A stretch of 41,578 bases of DNA from a virus. Below, piece by piece: positions 31,458 through 38,810 of this stretch. Location: positions 1-41,578 of IMG/VR virus record IMGVR_UViG_3300025168_000188. One strand, given 5' to 3'. The notes under the pieces were generated by a model, which saw only the letters and a program-made list of their open reading frames with translations, ran no database searches and was not told the origin of the DNA. Position numbers and translations under genes: made by a program. The first letter of the stretch is position 1, and each line of letters starts with the position of its first letter.

Positions 31458-31538
31458 TTCCGAATCTATTTTCGGATTTCGGAATTCGGATTTCGGATTT
31501 CGGATTTCGGAATTTCCGAATCTGTTTTCGGATTTCGG
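31458..31538. repeat. Heptamer array (TTTCGGA/CCGAAAT) between 25-bp direct repeats
   Basis: Bases 31458-31482 and 31514-31538 form a 25-bp direct repeat with one difference. Between them are tandem copies of the heptamer ATTTCGG/ATTCGGA. On the minus strand this gives an NPKSEIRNPKSE-like protein pattern. I recall similar repeats in some environmental bacterial genomes, but that is not checked. The repeat lies at the C-terminal end of the gene at 31466-31684. Confidence 0.8.
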
Positions 31539-31970: not shown

Positions 31971-32001
31971 CTTGTACACACTAAGTTTCAAAAAGTTCCA
32001 A
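31971..32001 (-). promoter_or_regulatory. Promoter-like element, copy 1
   Basis: Minus strand: TTGGAA (32001-31996), 19 bases, then TACAAG (31976-31971). The spacer begins CTTTTTGAAACTTAG. The gene at 31937 starts 34 bases downstream of the box. The same spacing occurs in three other copies. The role as promoter is inferred from position, spacing and resemblance, not from known factors. Confidence 0.55.
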
Positions 32002-32006
32002 ATTAA

Positions 32007-32300
32007 TTATTTAGTAAGATGCTTTAAGTACCTTTTAAGTTCTTTGTATTCCGTTTTTATACCTTTGTACTCTGCTTCTAATCCTCTAATTGTATTTGGC
32101 TTTGCCTTATAATGTTTAGCACACCTTATATCGTCTTTAGCTTCTTCAACTAATTCGTCTTCTTCAATTACATATATTATATATTTAACATCCCTTATAA
32201 GGTTAGCTAGAGAATCAAACCTGATGCTTTCATCGTTCTCCACGGCAGAGCAATAAGGTGCAGTATTTAATTTATTTATTAATATATTTTCTTTTTTCAT
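32007..32300 (-). CDS. Hypothetical helical protein, 97 residues
   Basis: Mostly charged helices (SLANLIRDVKYIIYVIEEDEL; RGLEAEYKGIKTEYKELKR). No family recognised. It follows promoter-like copy 2 (32334-32364) at the same 34-base distance as the previous gene from copy 1. Confidence 0.6.
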   Translation of the reverse strand: MKKENILINKLNTAPYCSAVENDESIRFDSLANLIRDVKYIIYVIEEDELVEEAKDDIRCAKHYKAKPNTIRGLEAEYKGIKTEYKELKRYLKHLTK

Positions 32301-32333
32301 TTTGAACTCCTTCTTTTGTTTTTGTGTTCCCTT

Positions 32334-32364
32334 CTTAAACGCATAAGTTTCAAAAAAGTTCCAA
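32334..32364 (-). promoter_or_regulatory. Promoter-like element, copy 2
   Basis: Minus strand: TTGGAA (32364-32359), 19 bases, then TTTAAG (32339-32334). The spacer (CTTTTTTGAAACTTATGCG) differs from copy 1 by one extra T and a few bases. The gene at 32300 starts 34 bases downstream. Exact 19-base spacing is shared with copies 1, 3 and 4. Confidence 0.55.
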
Positions 32365-32379
32365 AATTAATTTTTACGA

Positions 32380-32775
32380 CTATCTTTCATTTAATAAAAA
32401 AAAGTAGTATTTATGTAATATCGTAGAATTATTGCGGTCATAATGGCCACCATCACTTACTATCTCAGTATCAATACCATCATTTATTTTAAAGCAATCT
32501 TTAATATAACCCAATGTGATGTCGGATACAAACTCACCACCTAGCTGAGTGTGGGGTTTGTCGTTTACATAAAAATAAAATAAAGGTTCACATTTGTAGG
32601 GTACATTTATGTTATCTTCTCGTATCATTTTATATATATCATATCGCCTAGATACAATATCTTTGCTCGGGTATCCAGACATACCCATTAACAGCCTAGT
32701 TTTATCGATTAGTGCTAGTTCGTTACTGTTTTTAATATAAGTATCGATCGTTTTCTCTTTGTTTCTTATCATCAT
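32380..32775 (-). CDS. Hypothetical protein, 131 residues
   Basis: No family recognised. Contains helical EKTIDTYIKNSNELALIDKT and SKDIVSRRYDIYKMIRED, then a mixed C-terminal half (YVNDKPHTQLGGEFVSDITL; DTEIVSDGGHYDRNNSTI). It ends just before promoter-like copy 2. Confidence 0.55.
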   Translation of the reverse strand: MMIRNKEKTIDTYIKNSNELALIDKTRLLMGMSGYPSKDIVSRRYDIYKMIREDNINVPYKCEPLFYFYVNDKPHTQLGGEFVSDITLGYIKDCFKINDGIDTEIVSDGGHYDRNNSTILHKYYFFLLNER

Positions 32776-32776
32776 T

Positions 32777-33010
32777 TTATTTATCCTTCTTTCTGCATTT
32801 TAAACAAGTAACCCTTGGTAATTTGTACGTAGGTATTACCTTATAATAATTTTGACCTCTTAATACATGCTCCCATACTTTTTTACATACTGTACAAAAC
32901 TTTAGTTTTGCTCCCGACCTGTCGTATGAATGTGATTTCTTGTTGTTGATAGGGTTGAAAGACTTTCCTTGAATCATCGCTTCAATAACCCATTTTGTAC
33001 TCTTATCCAT
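32777..33010 (-). CDS. Zinc-ribbon protein, 77 residues
   Basis: Two CxxC pairs, CTVC near residue 39 and CLKC near residue 71, form a zinc ribbon, separated by KVWEHVLRGQNYYKVIPTYK. I recall similar small phage proteins with the pattern GAKLKFCTVCKKVWE. They have no known function. Starts at a TAATG overlap with 33010. Confidence 0.65.
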   Translation of the reverse strand: MDKSTKWVIEAMIQGKSFNPINNKKSHSYDRSGAKLKFCTVCKKVWEHVLRGQNYYKVIPTYKLPRVTCLKCRKKDK

Positions 33011-33471
33011 TAAGCTTCTCCTAGTTCATTCGTATATAAATCAAAACTCATATTACCAAAGTCTTCAATATTAATATTCATTTCTTTACCGCAATCCTCA
33101 CAGGATATAGATTCTTGAGTGTTGGTATCAAATTCTCTAGGTTGGTATACTGTTGTAAGATGCTTACAATATGCCTGTTCCCTCTCCTGTTCTTCGCTAT
33201 CCATTACATAATCTGTAACAAGGTCATAATACCATGTACTCATATGCTGTTCTTCTATTGCCGTTGATATATCTTTTTGTAGTTCATCACAATCAAATAC
33301 AGCTATTGACCGCTTTGTAAGTGGTGACTTCGTTACAAAACCTTCTTTGTCGTACTCGGCAAAGTATGTAAAGAACTTTTTGTTTCTACCTCCATTCTCA
33401 GATATTATACCCGTATAAAAAGAATCTGAATTTATACCCGCTTTATGAAATTTTATTTTAACTATCTTCAT
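33010..33471 (-). CDS. Hypothetical protein with CxxC pair, 153 residues
   Basis: No family recognised. The centre has an acidic helix region (DELQKDISTAIEEQHMSTWYYDLV). The C-terminal part contains SCEDCGKEMNINIEDFG, one CxxC that may pair with the upstream CKH (AYCKHLTTVY) as a zinc site. The start overlaps 33468 by 4 bases. Confidence 0.55.
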   Translation of the reverse strand: MKIVKIKFHKAGINSDSFYTGIISENGGRNKKFFTYFAEYDKEGFVTKSPLTKRSIAVFDCDELQKDISTAIEEQHMSTWYYDLVTDYVMDSEEQEREQAYCKHLTTVYQPREFDTNTQESISCEDCGKEMNINIEDFGNMSFDLYTNELGEA

Positions 33472-33758
33472 TGCATTAACTCTTCTTCTTCAGTTGGTGT
33501 AAGGTCATGGAGAAACAGTTCTTCAAACTCAACAGAAGCATCAGTACCTGCTTCCCAATCCCATGTTACTGCATACAATTCTGTATTACATGCCGTTAAT
33601 TTAATATCAAAAAAATCATCTTCAGACCCTTTACATAGTGACCATTTATGATTCGTACCAAATGCTTGTTCATCTCCATAATCTAATTCTTTAAGCATTT
33701 TTACTGTTACCATATCAAATGGTAAGTCTTTAATTGCATCTTTCCAAAACTGTCTCAT
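33468..33758 (-). CDS. Hypothetical protein, 96 residues
   Basis: No family recognised. It opens RQFWKDAIKDLPFDMVTVKM and contains LTACNTELYAVTWDWEAGTD and an acidic end (LHDLTPTEEEELM). It is the first gene downstream of the 38-bp repeats and promoter-like copy 3. AAGGGGAATAACA before the ATG is a good ribosome site. Confidence 0.6.
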   Translation of the reverse strand: MRQFWKDAIKDLPFDMVTVKMLKELDYGDEQAFGTNHKWSLCKGSEDDFFDIKLTACNTELYAVTWDWEAGTDASVEFEELFLHDLTPTEEEELMQ

Positions 33759-33782
33759 TGTTATTCCCCTTTTTTTGTTAGT

Positions 33783-33911
33783 TACCTACGTTCGTTAGTT
33801 ACTTGCGTTAATTAGTATACTACCTACGTTCGTTAGTTACTTGCGTTAATTAGTATACTACCTACGTTCGTTAGTTACTTGCGTTAATTAGTATACTACC
33901 TACGTTCGTTA
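33783..33911. repeat. Three tandem 38-bp repeats plus a partial fourth
   Basis: The unit starting TACCTACGTTCGTTAGTT begins at 33783, 33821, 33859 and 33897 (last one partial, 15 bases). Each unit has a TATACT on the minus strand (AGTATA at 33814, 33852, 33890) and two related CGTTA-type halves. The last unit's minus-strand TATACT is also the -10-like box of promoter-like copy 3. Sequence identity between units is essentially complete over the unit. Function: iterons, or triplicated promoter boxes. Confidence 0.9.
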
Positions 33912-33920
33912 AAGTTCCAT
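33890..33920 (-). promoter_or_regulatory. Promoter-like element, copy 3
   Basis: Minus strand: ATGGAA (33920-33915), 19 bases, then TATACT (33895-33890). The spacer is CTTTAACGAACGTAGGTAG. The TATACT is repeated in the two neighbouring 38-bp units closer to the gene at 33758, so additional start sites are possible at 33852 and 33814. Confidence 0.55.
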
Positions 33921-33946
33921 TTTATTTTAATTATTTATTTTAACTA

Positions 33947-34141
33947 TTAATTAATACAGATATAGGTAGGTTTTTTAGTATCAGTACTATAACAGTCATT
34001 TTCATCTTTTTGCATCGGTGTAGGTGCAAATTTTACGCTTTCAATTTTATTACCTTCATCATCACTAGAATATACTATTTCTAAATTACCATATGTATTT
34101 TTATAGCTTTGCAAGTTGTTTATTAATTCGCTTATTTTCAT
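33947..34141 (-). CDS. Conserved small phage protein, 64 residues
   Basis: MKISELINNLQSYKNTYGNLE and YSSDDEGNKIESVKF form a pattern that I remember from phage proteins with an MTVKELIEKLQ start, with no function. It is followed by the repeats and lies last in the 34-36 kb block of genes with a common leader (TAAAATAAGGA and then the ATG). Confidence 0.65.
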   Translation of the reverse strand: MKISELINNLQSYKNTYGNLEIVYSSDDEGNKIESVKFAPTPMQKDENDCYSTDTKKPTYICIN

Positions 34142-34158
34142 TTTATTATTTCCTTATT

Positions 34159-34776
34159 TTATATTTTATTATTTAAATCATCTTCAGCATCAGCATCAAA
34201 TCTCGCATCCCTATCCATATCATCAGCATCATCATCACCGTCTCTATCGAAATCAACTTTCATTACACATCCTGATAATAGACTTGATTGTATCTCATTT
34301 ACATCATCATAGAATGTATCTATAGCCTCATCATAATCTATTCCTTCTGCTTCACATTCCTCTTCCCAAGGTCTTTCAGGCCCCTCATCATCATCCATTT
34401 TCCAATGAAATCCATTCTTGCTACCATACCCAGCAAATAAGAAATCATCAGACTCTTCATCACCTATAAAGGATATACAAGCATTCTCATCCATAGCAAC
34501 TATAACAGAACTCAACTCCTCTAAGAAGCCGTCTGCTGGGTGCCACGCTGAACAAAAGTTTATATAACTTTCATCATCACCATAATTAGAGTCTTCAATA
34601 ATTACCCACTTAGAACCTACAGCATTTGTATCGTATTTGAAGTTTTTACCAAATACGGGTTCTACAACTTTTTTTACATCATTATAATCTAATCCACTCC
34701 ACCACTTTTCTAGTGTTCTATGTACTCCTTCTTTTTTAGAGTTTACAGTTACTTTTTGCCATACGTGATTAGCCAT
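34159..34776 (-). CDS. Api92-like protein with strongly acidic C-terminal tail
   Basis: This 205-residue protein begins MANHVWQKVTVN, the start of Api92/DUF1281-type ferredoxin-like-fold phage proteins. The middle has WWSGLDYNDVKK and YINFCSAWHPADG, typical of that family. The last about 40 residues (VDFDRDGDDDADDMDRDARF and on) are almost all Asp, Glu and Arg, with net strong negative charge, and may mimic DNA or bind basic partners. Function of the family is not established. Confidence 0.7.
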   Translation of the reverse strand: MANHVWQKVTVNSKKEGVHRTLEKWWSGLDYNDVKKVVEPVFGKNFKYDTNAVGSKWVIIEDSNYGDDESYINFCSAWHPADGFLEELSSVIVAMDENACISFIGDEESDDFLFAGYGSKNGFHWKMDDDEGPERPWEEECEAEGIDYDEAIDTFYDDVNEIQSSLLSGCVMKVDFDRDGDDDADDMDRDARFDADAEDDLNNKI

Positions 34777-34791
34777 ATTATTTTTTGTTCC

Positions 34792-35076
34792 TTATTTTAA
34801 TTTTTTTAAAAGATTATCGATATCATCTTTGCCAGTCCATCCAGCAACTTCGTCATTAGTGTCTAAAAACTTATCAGTGACAAAACTTCTTTCCATAGAA
34901 TTATCCCATATAGCAACTTCGAATGAACTGAATTTACTAGAACTACTTAAGTCCATTCGTGGAGTACTGTAAACAAACTTACCAGCTTGAATACTTACTG
35001 TAACATCTTTAAATTTTACAGTAGTTCCAATGCCACCGTGATGTTGTTTCTTAAATTTTAAATCTTTTAATTTCAT
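34792..35076 (-). CDS. Hypothetical protein, 94 residues
   Basis: Beta-rich N-terminal half (LKFKKQHHGGIGTTVKFKDV), then STPRMDLSSSSKFSSFEVAI, acidic C-terminus (DTNDEVAGWTGKDDIDNLL). No family recognised. Its TAA stop is fused to the TAAGGA ribosome site of the next gene (34776). Starts in an ATGA overlap with the ORF at 35073. Confidence 0.6.
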   Translation of the reverse strand: MKLKDLKFKKQHHGGIGTTVKFKDVTVSIQAGKFVYSTPRMDLSSSSKFSSFEVAIWDNSMERSFVTDKFLDTNDEVAGWTGKDDIDNLLKKLK

Positions 35077-35192
35077 ATTATTTTTATTTCCTTATTTATT
35101 TTGTTAAATAAGAGCGTGTCAGGTCTTTTATGGAATTTACGCATCCCTGCGAACTGCCGTTTTATCAAGTCAATCTTTAACGCTCTTATCAT
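35073..35192 (-). CDS. 39-residue basic ORF
   Basis: The ATG at 35192 gives IRALKIDLIKRQFAGMRK, then FHKRPDTLLFNKINKEIKII and an ATGA overlap with 35076. It is basic and could be a small DNA-binding peptide. The span also contains a perfect 10-bp inverted repeat (35108-35117 with 35180-35189), so it may instead be a structured RNA. Confidence 0.45.
   Translation of the reverse strand: MIRALKIDLIKRQFAGMRKFHKRPDTLLFNKINKEIKII
35108..35189. repeat. Perfect 10-bp inverted repeat with 62-base loop
   Basis: ATAAGAGCGT (35108-35117) pairs with ACGCTCTTAT (35180-35189). The loop is 62 bases, the same length as in the element at 29284-29369, though the inner sequences differ. Inside is CGCA/TGCG hairpin potential. 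It overlaps a 39-codon ORF, so it may be coincidental. Confidence 0.4.
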
Positions 35193-35235
35193 ACCCTTTA
35201 TACACTACTTACGGGTCTTTGTTCCCAACTTTCTA

Positions 35236-35364
35236 TTATTCGCCCCTTTCTTGTATTTCCTCATAAATACTTTTCTGAATTTTTAATAATTCTTGAGTAG
35301 TTAATATATCTCTTATTACAAATTTGATATATAACTTTAATGTCTTTCTATGTTGTTTTGTCAT
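35236..35364 (-). CDS. 42-residue small helical protein
   Basis: ORF from ATG at 35364 (TKQHRKTLKLYIKFVIRDIL to QERGE). Mostly helical and basic at the start. No family recognised. GAAAGGGAATAAA before the ATG is a ribosome site. Confidence 0.55.
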   Translation of the reverse strand: MTKQHRKTLKLYIKFVIRDILTTQELLKIQKSIYEEIQERGE

Positions 35365-35448
35365 TTTATTCCCTTTCGTTTTAGTTTGTTTAATAGTTTA
35401 TTTTTTGTTCTTTACTACTTTTATTTTCTGCTATAAAAAGAGTTAAGT

Positions 35449-35613
35449 TTAAGATTTTAATTTAGTCATTAATTTAGATCTAGCTTCTTTTCTTTTTTGA
35501 CTGTCCCAAGCTGCACTAATTCCACTTGTTAAAATGTCTAATATTATATTTAAAGATTGTTTACTAGTCTTACCTTCTTTTCTATATTGATTATATAATT
35601 TCTGTATACTCAT
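35449..35613 (-). CDS. 54-residue small protein
   Basis: ORF from ATG at 35613: SIQKLYNQYRKEGKTSKQSL, then NIILDILTSGISAAWDSQKR, with a basic end. No family recognised. The leader (TTAAAATAAGGAAC and a run of A) is the one shared by its neighbours. Confidence 0.6.
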   Translation of the reverse strand: MSIQKLYNQYRKEGKTSKQSLNIILDILTSGISAAWDSQKRKEARSKLMTKLKS

Positions 35614-35641
35614 TTTTTTAGTTCCTTATTTTAATTAATGT

Positions 35642-36268
35642 TTAATGAATAACTAGACCTACTTTTAAGCTCTTATTGTGCCACTTAGTAGCGTATAAAT
35701 CATAGTTACTAGTATCTGTATACCCTTCAGATTTTAAAGCCGTTAGTGAGTCAAATATTTTAGTATGTCGCTCTGTTTTCAAATCTCTCATATGCGATTG
35801 CTTGCCACTATCCGAAAAGATAAAATCAAAATTATTAGGTATTGATTTTAAACTTCTAATCATAGTCACGTTATTAGTATATGAATAAAAGCGGACGTTT
35901 GGTAATAATTCAGCTATTTTTAACCACTTTAAAAGATACTTTTTAGAGTAGTAGTCCCCGCCATCGTGTACTCTAATATAATTGGCTTTTTTATCTTTTA
36001 TGTCTTTTATCATCATATCAATAAAATTATCACTTAAAGTATCTAAATATTTAAAGTGAGCGTATCTTTCAGCTAATTTATAAAAGCCTTTTTGAGCATA
36101 GCAAAATTTTATACAAGCATCTGCCATAACACAAATTAATTTATTATCTTTTGTTTTATACGCGGGTATTGAAAAATTATATACCTTAGCATTAAAATGC
36201 TTACTTGTTTTATTAATTTTACTGTTTTGTGTTAGTAAGTTGTAATTATAGTTATTTCTAGTATTCAT
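35642..36268 (-). CDS. Gp88-like cysteine-motif protein
   Basis: This 208-residue protein has the pattern LICVMADACIKFCYAQKGFY (C46, C52, C56), then YIRVHDGGDYYSKKYLLKWL (97-116), FYSYTN (127-132) and FSDSG (151-155). This order of motifs matches my memory of the phage Gp88 family (mycobacteriophage gene product 88), which has a barrel-like fold with a Cys cluster, possibly radical-SAM-like. Its function is unknown. No SAM-binding CxxxCxxC is exactly present; the spacing here is C-x5-C-x3-C. It is in the early cluster with the standard leader. Confidence 0.65.
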   Translation of the reverse strand: MNTRNNYNYNLLTQNSKINKTSKHFNAKVYNFSIPAYKTKDNKLICVMADACIKFCYAQKGFYKLAERYAHFKYLDTLSDNFIDMMIKDIKDKKANYIRVHDGGDYYSKKYLLKWLKIAELLPNVRFYSYTNNVTMIRSLKSIPNNFDFIFSDSGKQSHMRDLKTERHTKIFDSLTALKSEGYTDTSNYDLYATKWHNKSLKVGLVIH

Positions 36269-36269
36269 A

Positions 36270-36578
36270 TTATTTTGATTTCCTTATTTTACAACAGTTA
36301 TTAATTTTGTAAGGATGTCCATACTTATCATTTAAAGATTTATTACTCATTGATTTAAGTTCGTCATACGAAACCCCGTCTTCAAGTGCATATTCCATAT
36401 TTATTTCTTTTTGTTCATATAAAAAATCAGAATTTACATCCTCAGTAAATCGGTTTAAAACTGTTTTACGACTTAAAACATTATATGATTTTCTTAAATC
36501 TCTACAAGTTGAATTATGAACTTCATAATGATATTTATTTACAATTTCTGGTTGTACTATTATGTATTTATTTTTCAT
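36270..36578 (-). CDS. Hypothetical protein, 102 residues
   Basis: Contains NKYHYEVHNSTCRDLRKSYN near the N-terminus, an acidic helix (YALEDGVSYDELKSMSNKSL), and a C-terminal YGHPYKINNCCKIRKSK. No family recognised. It is the first gene after promoter-like copy 4, whose -10-like box is 39 bases before the ATG. Confidence 0.6.
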   Translation of the reverse strand: MKNKYIIVQPEIVNKYHYEVHNSTCRDLRKSYNVLSRKTVLNRFTEDVNSDFLYEQKEINMEYALEDGVSYDELKSMSNKSLNDKYGHPYKINNCCKIRKSK

Positions 36579-36616
36579 TTTGTTATCATCCTTATTGTTT
36601 ATTGTTAATTATATAA

Positions 36617-36647
36617 GGTATACTCACTAAGTTCTAAAAAGTTCCAT
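36617..36647 (-). promoter_or_regulatory. Promoter-like element, copy 4
   Basis: Minus strand: ATGGAA (36647-36642), 19 bases (CTTTTTAGAACTTAGTGAG), then TATACC (36622-36617), followed by a TATAAT at 36610-36615. Of the four copies it is the closest to a standard -10. It stands between the origin-like repeats and the gene at 36578. Confidence 0.6.
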
Positions 36648-37057
36648 TTTATTTTAAAATAATTACATTGTATGTTTAAATAAGTGTCCCCCCTTATATA
36701 TAGTATAATATATATTAATAACTATTGGTTACTCTCAGGGTTACATACATACATAGGGCCCCGTTTAGATAGGTTACTTACGTGAACAAAAAACTATATA
36801 AAATAGTATTAAATAATTTACGGCCGTGAACAAACTTTATATAATAACTTTCGAGCGTGAACAAACCATTAAATAAAACTTTGAGCGTAAAGTACTTGCG
36901 TGAACAAACTTTATAATAAATCTACTTCCGTGAACATTCCACTATATAAAATAATAAATTGTAGATCTAGTCGCAGGTAGTACAATAATAGCAGATACAG
37001 AAAAGGCCAACCAATACAATATAGTATTAATTAGCCTTATATAGCCCTATTAGACAT
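36648..37057. other. Intergenic origin-like region with CGTGAACA repeats
   Basis: No gene is seen in these 410 bases. CGTGAACA or a close form lies at 36781, 36825, 36856, 36886 (degenerate, CGTAAAGT), 36899 and 36929. Most are followed by an A/T-rich arm (AACTTTATATAA), and most spacings are about 30 bases, close to three helical turns. Iteron-like arrays of this kind bind replication initiators. Flanking sequence is very AT-rich. An early regulator operator is the alternative. Confidence 0.55.
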
Positions 37058-37161: not shown

Positions 37162-37356
37162 TTATTTAATTACTTTGTAGCTATATTCTCTTCCGACGTA
37201 GTTTATATGTTTAGATGAAGTCATAGACCAATATCCTAGAATATTTATAGTTCTGTTAATATGGTCTATTGTTGCAACTTTCGTATTATAGCTGAATATA
37301 TTGTTATCATCTACTTTTAAGTTCTTTTTATACTTAATTAGGCTTGTTCTATTCAT
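37162..37356 (-). CDS. Hypothetical protein, 64 residues
   Basis: Basic N-terminus (NRTSLIKYKKNLKVDDNNIF), beta-rich middle (VATIDHINRTINILGYWSMT). No family recognised. It is the last gene of a three-gene unit ending at the terminator at 37058. Confidence 0.6.
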   Translation of the reverse strand: MNRTSLIKYKKNLKVDDNNIFSYNTKVATIDHINRTINILGYWSMTSSKHINYVGREYSYKVIK

Positions 37357-38141: not shown

Positions 38142-38206
38142 ATCAGAAGCCGTTCCAATAATTGAGGAAGGTTAATATTTTCTAATTGTCAAAAAGCGGT
38201 TCTGAT
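38142..38206. repeat. Imperfect inverted repeat in the divergent region
   Basis: ATCAGAAGCCG (38142-38152) pairs with CGGTTCTGAT (38197-38206) with one bulged G. The 44-base interior contains TTCC/GGAA hairpin potential. It could be an operator, origin element or RNA structure upstream of the gene at 38012. Confidence 0.4.
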
Positions 38207-38544: not shown

Positions 38545-38735
38545 GCGATACTATTGCGGGTAATATTATATTAATATTATTAATATTATATATATAATAT
38601 ATATTATATATAATACCTATATAGACTTACTATATAATACCTATATATAAGTTATATATAATAGTACTATAGTACTATATTACTATTATATTAATATTAT
38701 ATTACTATAGTACTATATTAATACTCCTATAACCA
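38545..38735. repeat. Extremely AT-rich repeat block
   Basis: Almost only A and T, made of TATATAAT, ATTAATATT and TACTATAGTACTATATTA-type motifs. The 17-base ACTATAGTACTATATTA occurs at 38666-38682 and again at 38704-38720, 38 bases apart. CTATATAATACCTATATA also recurs. It has the character of a DNA-unwinding element near an origin or pac site. Confidence 0.65.
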
Positions 38736-38810
38736 ACCGGAAAGTAAAGAAGTTATATATAAGTTATATCAAACATTTTGTTTTTGTCAAGTTTTTTTAT
38801 AAATTAAAAT

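Follow-up and report, generated by a model that had tools for sequence, protein, structure and literature searches.

Infection by phages usually begins from strong sigma70 promoters or with a polymerase or sigma factor that the phage itself brings. In the middle promoters of phage T4, a MotA box replaces the -35 element at a fixed distance from a TATAAT-like sigma70 -10 box. SigW recognises a TGAAAC -35 box and a CGTA-like -10 box, and the -10 box of RpoE (sigma E) is TCTNA-like. The -35 box of E. coli RpoE is GGAACTT (PMC8103513). Promoters of EcfG, a sigma factor exclusive to Alphaproteobacteria, have the form GGAAC-N16-CGTT in R. etli (EcfG1; PMC3892343) and GGAAC-N17-20-GTT in S. melonis (PMC6599016). 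A bipartite form is also known for the late promoters of phage 7-11, which has a sigma of its own and uses GTAAtg-(16)-aCTA (PMC8948821). Here, we describe a two-box element with a fixed spacer of 16 bases (N16) that stands before early genes in an uncultured marine phage and in dozens of its relatives. The phage is the IMG/VR virus record IMGVR_UViG_3300025168_000188; its whole length, positions 1 to 41,578, was analysed and is called the window below. The record closes circularly into a complete phage (its two ends share 214 bases that are 99% identical), with the structural genes on the plus strand and the small early genes in a block on the minus strand.

Five bipartite elements before early genes

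All five elements of the window lie on the minus strand and contain GGAAC. Element 1 (36619..36645) reads GGAAC-N16-AGTATA, with the ATG of its gene (36578-36270) 67 bases further on. Element 2 (33892..33918) has the same two boxes and is followed by a tandem array; 160 bases separate it from the ATG of its gene (33758-33468). Elements 3 (32336..32362, GGAAC-N16-CGTT, the exact EcfG1 consensus) and 4 (31973..31999, GGAAC-N16-TGTACA) are each 62 bases from the ATG of their genes, at 32300-32007 and 31937-31686, respectively. Element 5 (35199..35225, GGAAC-N16-TGTATAA) has no T-tract and precedes a hairpin-flanked leader and the gene at 35076-34792; its orthologues also stand before genes in seven relatives (L063, L075, L050, L095, L109, L137 and L143). 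The array behind element 2 (33783..33911, minus strand) is a perfect 38-bp repeat of 3.4 identical copies, in which the GTATAC box of that element recurs without GGAAC.

The original prediction had placed four elements, each consisting of TTGGAA or ATGGAA, 19 bases and a six-base box, at 32001-31971, 32364-32334, 33920-33890 and 36647-36617 of the minus strand, with 34, 34, 56 (from a tandem copy) and 39 bases between box and ATG. All four are real and these coordinates and distances were correct, but the fifth element had been overlooked. The constant spacing also stood, in a register that is better written as GGAAC(TTT)-N16-(C/A/T)GT(A/T). A location just upstream of early genes applies generally, with the reservation that element 2 is itself distant from its ATG and that the tandem copies nearer to the gene lack GGAAC. 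A repeat one helical turn apart in the spacer had been thought typical; it occurs in some copies and relatives, but the second GAAACTT repeat is confined to a subset of relatives and absent from many, and it was rejected as a defining feature. The resemblance to extracytoplasmic function (ECF) sigma promoters, treated below, is an addition to that prediction.

The pattern GGAACTTT-N13-(A/C/T)GT(A/T) was found four times in the window against 0.06 expected, and the maximum in 300 randomised sequences was two. The sequence TGGAACTTT alone was uninformative, with 15 matches (one mismatch at most) against 19 expected, which indicates that the information resides in the spacing and the second box. 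A weight matrix was built from 50 sites of relatives with the window left out; as these training sites had been preselected for GGAACTTT and the second box, the matrix tests the recurrence of the motif in the window and not its discovery. It ranked elements 1, 3, 4 and 2 at the top of the window (31.7, 30.6, 28.1 and 24.1 bits), followed by a match of 12.5 bits antisense in the portal gene, and the best score in 20 randomised windows was 13.6 bits. Thus, the claim that the four copies are not due to chance was borne out, and the proposed matrix scan gave no random or coding sites of equal score. Element 5 was not among the top matches of this matrix, which was trained on sites with the T-tract.

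A recent duplication without function, base composition or chance could be invoked for the elements. The sites of elements 3 and 4 (32362 and 31999) fall within a 105-bp stretch of 75% identity and, by this similarity, are probably related by duplication. However, the other window sites have little in common except the motif, which is retained in relatives although spacers and downstream genes there are unrelated, and shuffled sequences fail to produce it, so that we assign this explanation a negligible probability. Chance or A+T-richness as such was ruled out by the shuffles, the matrix from relatives and the rigid N16 spacing described next.

Register and spacing in related phages

The portal, the major head protein and both terminase subunits of the window match PHROGs families. 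Many IMG/VR contigs encode a terminase large subunit (TerL) with 76-82% identity to that of the window, whereas cultured phages show only remote similarity in TerL (about 26% or less), portal or major capsid protein (MCP). In the IMG/VR relatives, GGAAC was followed by GTATA at N16 plus one base 50 times; a spacing shorter by one base did not occur, and one longer by a base occurred once. The same spacing emerged from the unbiased test, a set of sites chosen by GGAACT with a downstream Shine-Dalgarno sequence and start codon, regardless of the second box: (A/C)GT(A/T) occurred 51 times at N16 and at most 5 times at spacings from 8 to 20 (7 at 21 and 15 at 25), and the control word GGAAG gave none at N16. 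Sites in which A, C or G comes after GGAAC peak at N16 as well (20 cases). The T-tract is therefore common and not required, a result that led to the fifth window site. After GGAACTTT, the second box was CGTA in 26 cases, AGTA in 21 and CGTT in 10. In members without A or T after the core, it is CGTATGCG, CGTATCAA, CGTTCAAA or CGTACAAT; CGT is kept and the TATAAT hexamer is lost.

The start codon often lies 47-65 bases from GGAAC (ATG from +47), and the Shine-Dalgarno sequence as near as about +37. At such distances, a transcription start fits only just downstream of the second box, and, most simply, the two boxes would be the core promoter itself. It could be argued instead that the elements are operators, that is, sites for a repressor or another DNA-binding protein over ordinary promoters, for which a fixed spacing and the helical-turn repeat of some copies might be suitable. 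However, the two boxes are asymmetric, the repeat is not conserved and the shortest cases leave no space for a separate promoter between the element and the Shine-Dalgarno sequence. In addition, sigma70-like matches in the region of the elements are at chance level (42 found, 45 expected), and an operator function appears very improbable to us. The same count, together with the absence of TTGACA at the sites, led to the rejection of canonical sigma70 promoters (TTGACA-N16-18-TATAAT) as an assignment for the elements. A sigma54 promoter was likewise rejected, because the GG-N10-GC signature is missing; the bases 12-13 from the start of GG are AA at 31999, 33918 and 36645.

Distribution of the motif

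Complete or long relatives contain up to seven GGAACT-type elements, on the early strand and nearly all in the early block, the exceptions being a site at 37335 of G005 and a conserved part of the portal gene, in antisense orientation. The strict 20-base version of the motif was searched in 2.9 million viral contigs (IMG/VR) and in the bacterial and archaeal genomes of GTDB (257 Gb). It was found at 41 viral loci, most of which encode nuclease, HNH or terminase proteins of the clade. One other locus is common to L114, L117 and L144, and L122 comes from an unrelated siphophage. The cellular genomes yielded the strict pattern once, before a collagen-like gene of Flavobacteriales (L145), and this match is probably due to chance. 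The motif was not enriched at N16 in four cultured phages whose MCP or TerL is distantly related. The expectation that the element would recur in related phages was thus confirmed for many of them, with rigid spacing, on the early strand and before start codons, and its near confinement to this clade among the viral contigs supports the phage-specific promoter or activator site that had been proposed.

The siphophage L122 has 58% G+C, compared with 42% at most in contigs of the clade, and its nearest cultured relatives, with about 41% identity in the primase, infect Salicola, Idiomarinaceae and Alteromonas. Two of its sites, L122:5636 and 6527 (both on the plus strand), combine GGAACTTT, CTTGACA and CGTATA, which looks like an overlap of ECF and sigma70 promoters. 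One long contig with clade genes, G003 (IMGVR_UViG_3300030098_005115, 56959 bases), has two sets of TerL, portal and MCP, with 78-81% and 27-32% identity to those of the window, and is probably a chimeric assembly of two phages.

A separate sigma70-type promoter and the early leaders

The phages of this clade have a further promoter near the terminase block. In the window, CTTGACA-N18-TAACTT at 38761..38790 (minus strand) points into the early region, and 25 non-identical versions of roughly CTTGACA/T-N17/18-TAWWTT are conserved in relatives, in the same place and orientation. By its boxes, the window copy is an ordinary sigma70-type promoter, and its conservation beside the GGAAC elements indicates that the same phages would use two distinct promoter classes. 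It reads into an A+T-rich palindromic array (38561-38723) and then into the first early leader, and it might serve a transcription-primed replication origin or early read-through.

The first early gene of the window is preceded by a boxA-like leader motif, GCTTTTTGACAATT (38184..38197, minus strand), with no GGAAC in front. In many relatives, a motif of the form (G)CTTTTTGACAATT or TTCTTTGACAATTTG comes after the first GGAAC promoter, within about 15-35 bases of its -10 box, and in some of them, a short inverted repeat at the presumed start precedes the boxA-like motif (L026, L051, L066, L034, L037, L059 and others carry this leader motif). We presume a likeness to the boxA antitermination motif of rrn operons, and the leader suggests antitermination of the rrn or nut type.

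Behind element 5, a cassette of about 90 bases (35190-35107, minus strand) is closed by an 11-bp stem, AUAAGAGCGU/ACGCUCUUAU (z -2.3). The cassette is also present at L063:626 (minus strand), with 97% identity to the window over 141 bp and one A-U to G-C change in the stem; at L075:1362 (minus strand) it is missing and the gene comes directly after the promoter. It may be a small RNA or a mobile insert. No Rfam match was obtained in the window or in three relatives. Two other repeats were noticed in the window: an imperfect array of about 10 TTTCGGA heptamers at the 3' end of an early gene (31458-31538), and five spaced, iteron-like copies of TGTTCACG (mostly TTTGTTCACG) in the non-coding stretch 36770-36960 (minus strand).

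Which factor would read the elements

The elements have the features by which ECF promoters are recognised in sequence, namely a -35 box containing GAAC/AAC and a short CGT-like -10 box at a rigid spacing of 16-17 bases. As for EcfG, the alphaproteobacterial sigma of the general stress response, GGAAC-N16/17-CGTT is exact at 32362, a site identical to the R. etli EcfG1 consensus; the other window sites have the same -35 box and spacing with AGTA or TGTA, and CGTT is a minority in relatives. The phage elements differ from EcfG promoters in their usual T-tract, in a -10 box that is mostly CGTA or AGTA and in driving phage early genes, and the host is not known to be an alphaproteobacterium. GGAACTT is common to the -35 box of E. 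coli RpoE and the phage elements, but their -10 box is not the TCTNA-like one of RpoE; with CGTA it resembles that of SigW, whose TGAAAC -35 box is not the one found here. A scan of 18 phage records, fragments included, identified no Sigma70_r2 domain (PF04542) and no Sigma70_r4_2 domain (PF08281) above cut-off, and a phage-encoded sigma of the 7-11 or phiEco32 type was rejected for this reason.

An ECF-like architecture together with the failure to find a phage sigma favours a host sigma, and we lean, with modest confidence, towards reading the elements as early promoters used by the RNA polymerase of the host together with one of its ECF-type sigmas. Each element would then be the core promoter of an early transcription unit, with GGAAC (usually with the T-tract) as -35 box, 16 bases, (C/A)GT(A/T) as -10 box and a start of transcription probably 6-9 bases beyond it; in many relatives, the first of these promoters would also head the leader with the boxA-like motif. 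The sigma would be supplied by the host, alphaproteobacterial EcfG being the closest named match. Transcription from the elements, an ECF-type holoenzyme as reader and the host origin of its sigma are all things that we infer from these comparisons. Attempts to trace the host yielded neither a TerL relative in GTDB genomes nor a tRNA gene nor a cultured relative; the invariant CTTGAC -35 box of the sigma70-type promoter hints faintly at an alphaproteobacterium, which it would suit.

Several observations weigh against a host ECF-type sigma. In the -10 box, CGTA and AGTA outnumber the CGTT of EcfG, the single match in cellular genomes means that no host regulon of the exact form was seen, and the upstream sigma70-type promoter could express a phage factor first. 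Moreover, a sigma70-like TATAAT, spaced by 17 bases, overlaps with (C/A)GTATAA. As GTATAA is a frequent form of the second box and the spacer of GGAACT-N17-TATAAT is ideal for sigma70, the elements might be sigma70 promoters in which an activator bound to GGAACTTTT takes the place of the -35 contact, in the manner of MotA, and the T-tract, which lengthens the box past GGAAC, would agree with this. The middle promoters of T4 likewise have a phage-wide box at a fixed distance from a TATAAT-like -10 box, but the box is a different one, and the present phages have several members (CGTATGCG, CGTATCAA and CGTTCAAA among them) that keep CGT where TATAAT is lost. An activator would also have to be present already, since the first early promoter carries the box in many relatives, and no activator gene was identified; Pfam and PHROGs scans of the early proteins named no MotA or AsiA relative, although no directed profile search was made. 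We consider this activator unlikely, if worth keeping in mind.

A little less likely still is a diverged phage sigma or RNA-polymerase-binding factor that would be expressed first from the conserved sigma70-type promoter. The near confinement of the motif to one clade and the position of that promoter, in its many versions, ahead of the early block speak for such a factor, and phage 7-11 offers a precedent with a phage-wide bipartite promoter and a 16-base spacer, as in these phages (PMC8948821). However, phages 7-11 and phiEco32 encode their sigma for middle or late genes, whereas the genes here are early and the domain scan found no sigma. The conserved early proteins examined are nuclease-like, HNH or small unknowns, and the genes behind the first leader vary among relatives.

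Implications for the phages and their hosts

Among the papers covered by a literature search, none described phage early promoters read by an ECF or EcfG sigma, which is not proof that none exist. The motif is a practical marker, because among 2.9 million contigs its strict version singles out this uncultured clade. Going beyond the promoters themselves, we tentatively suggest, as a possibility that we hold less probable than its opposite, that the early genes of a widespread uncultured marine clade have come under the control of a host stress sigma (EcfG or another ECF factor), so that infection would read the general or envelope stress state of the cell, instead of or besides sigma70. If this is true, an ECF-type early programme without a phage sigma would tie infection to the stress physiology of the host, and the host would be narrowed to bacteria with a matching ECF sigma.

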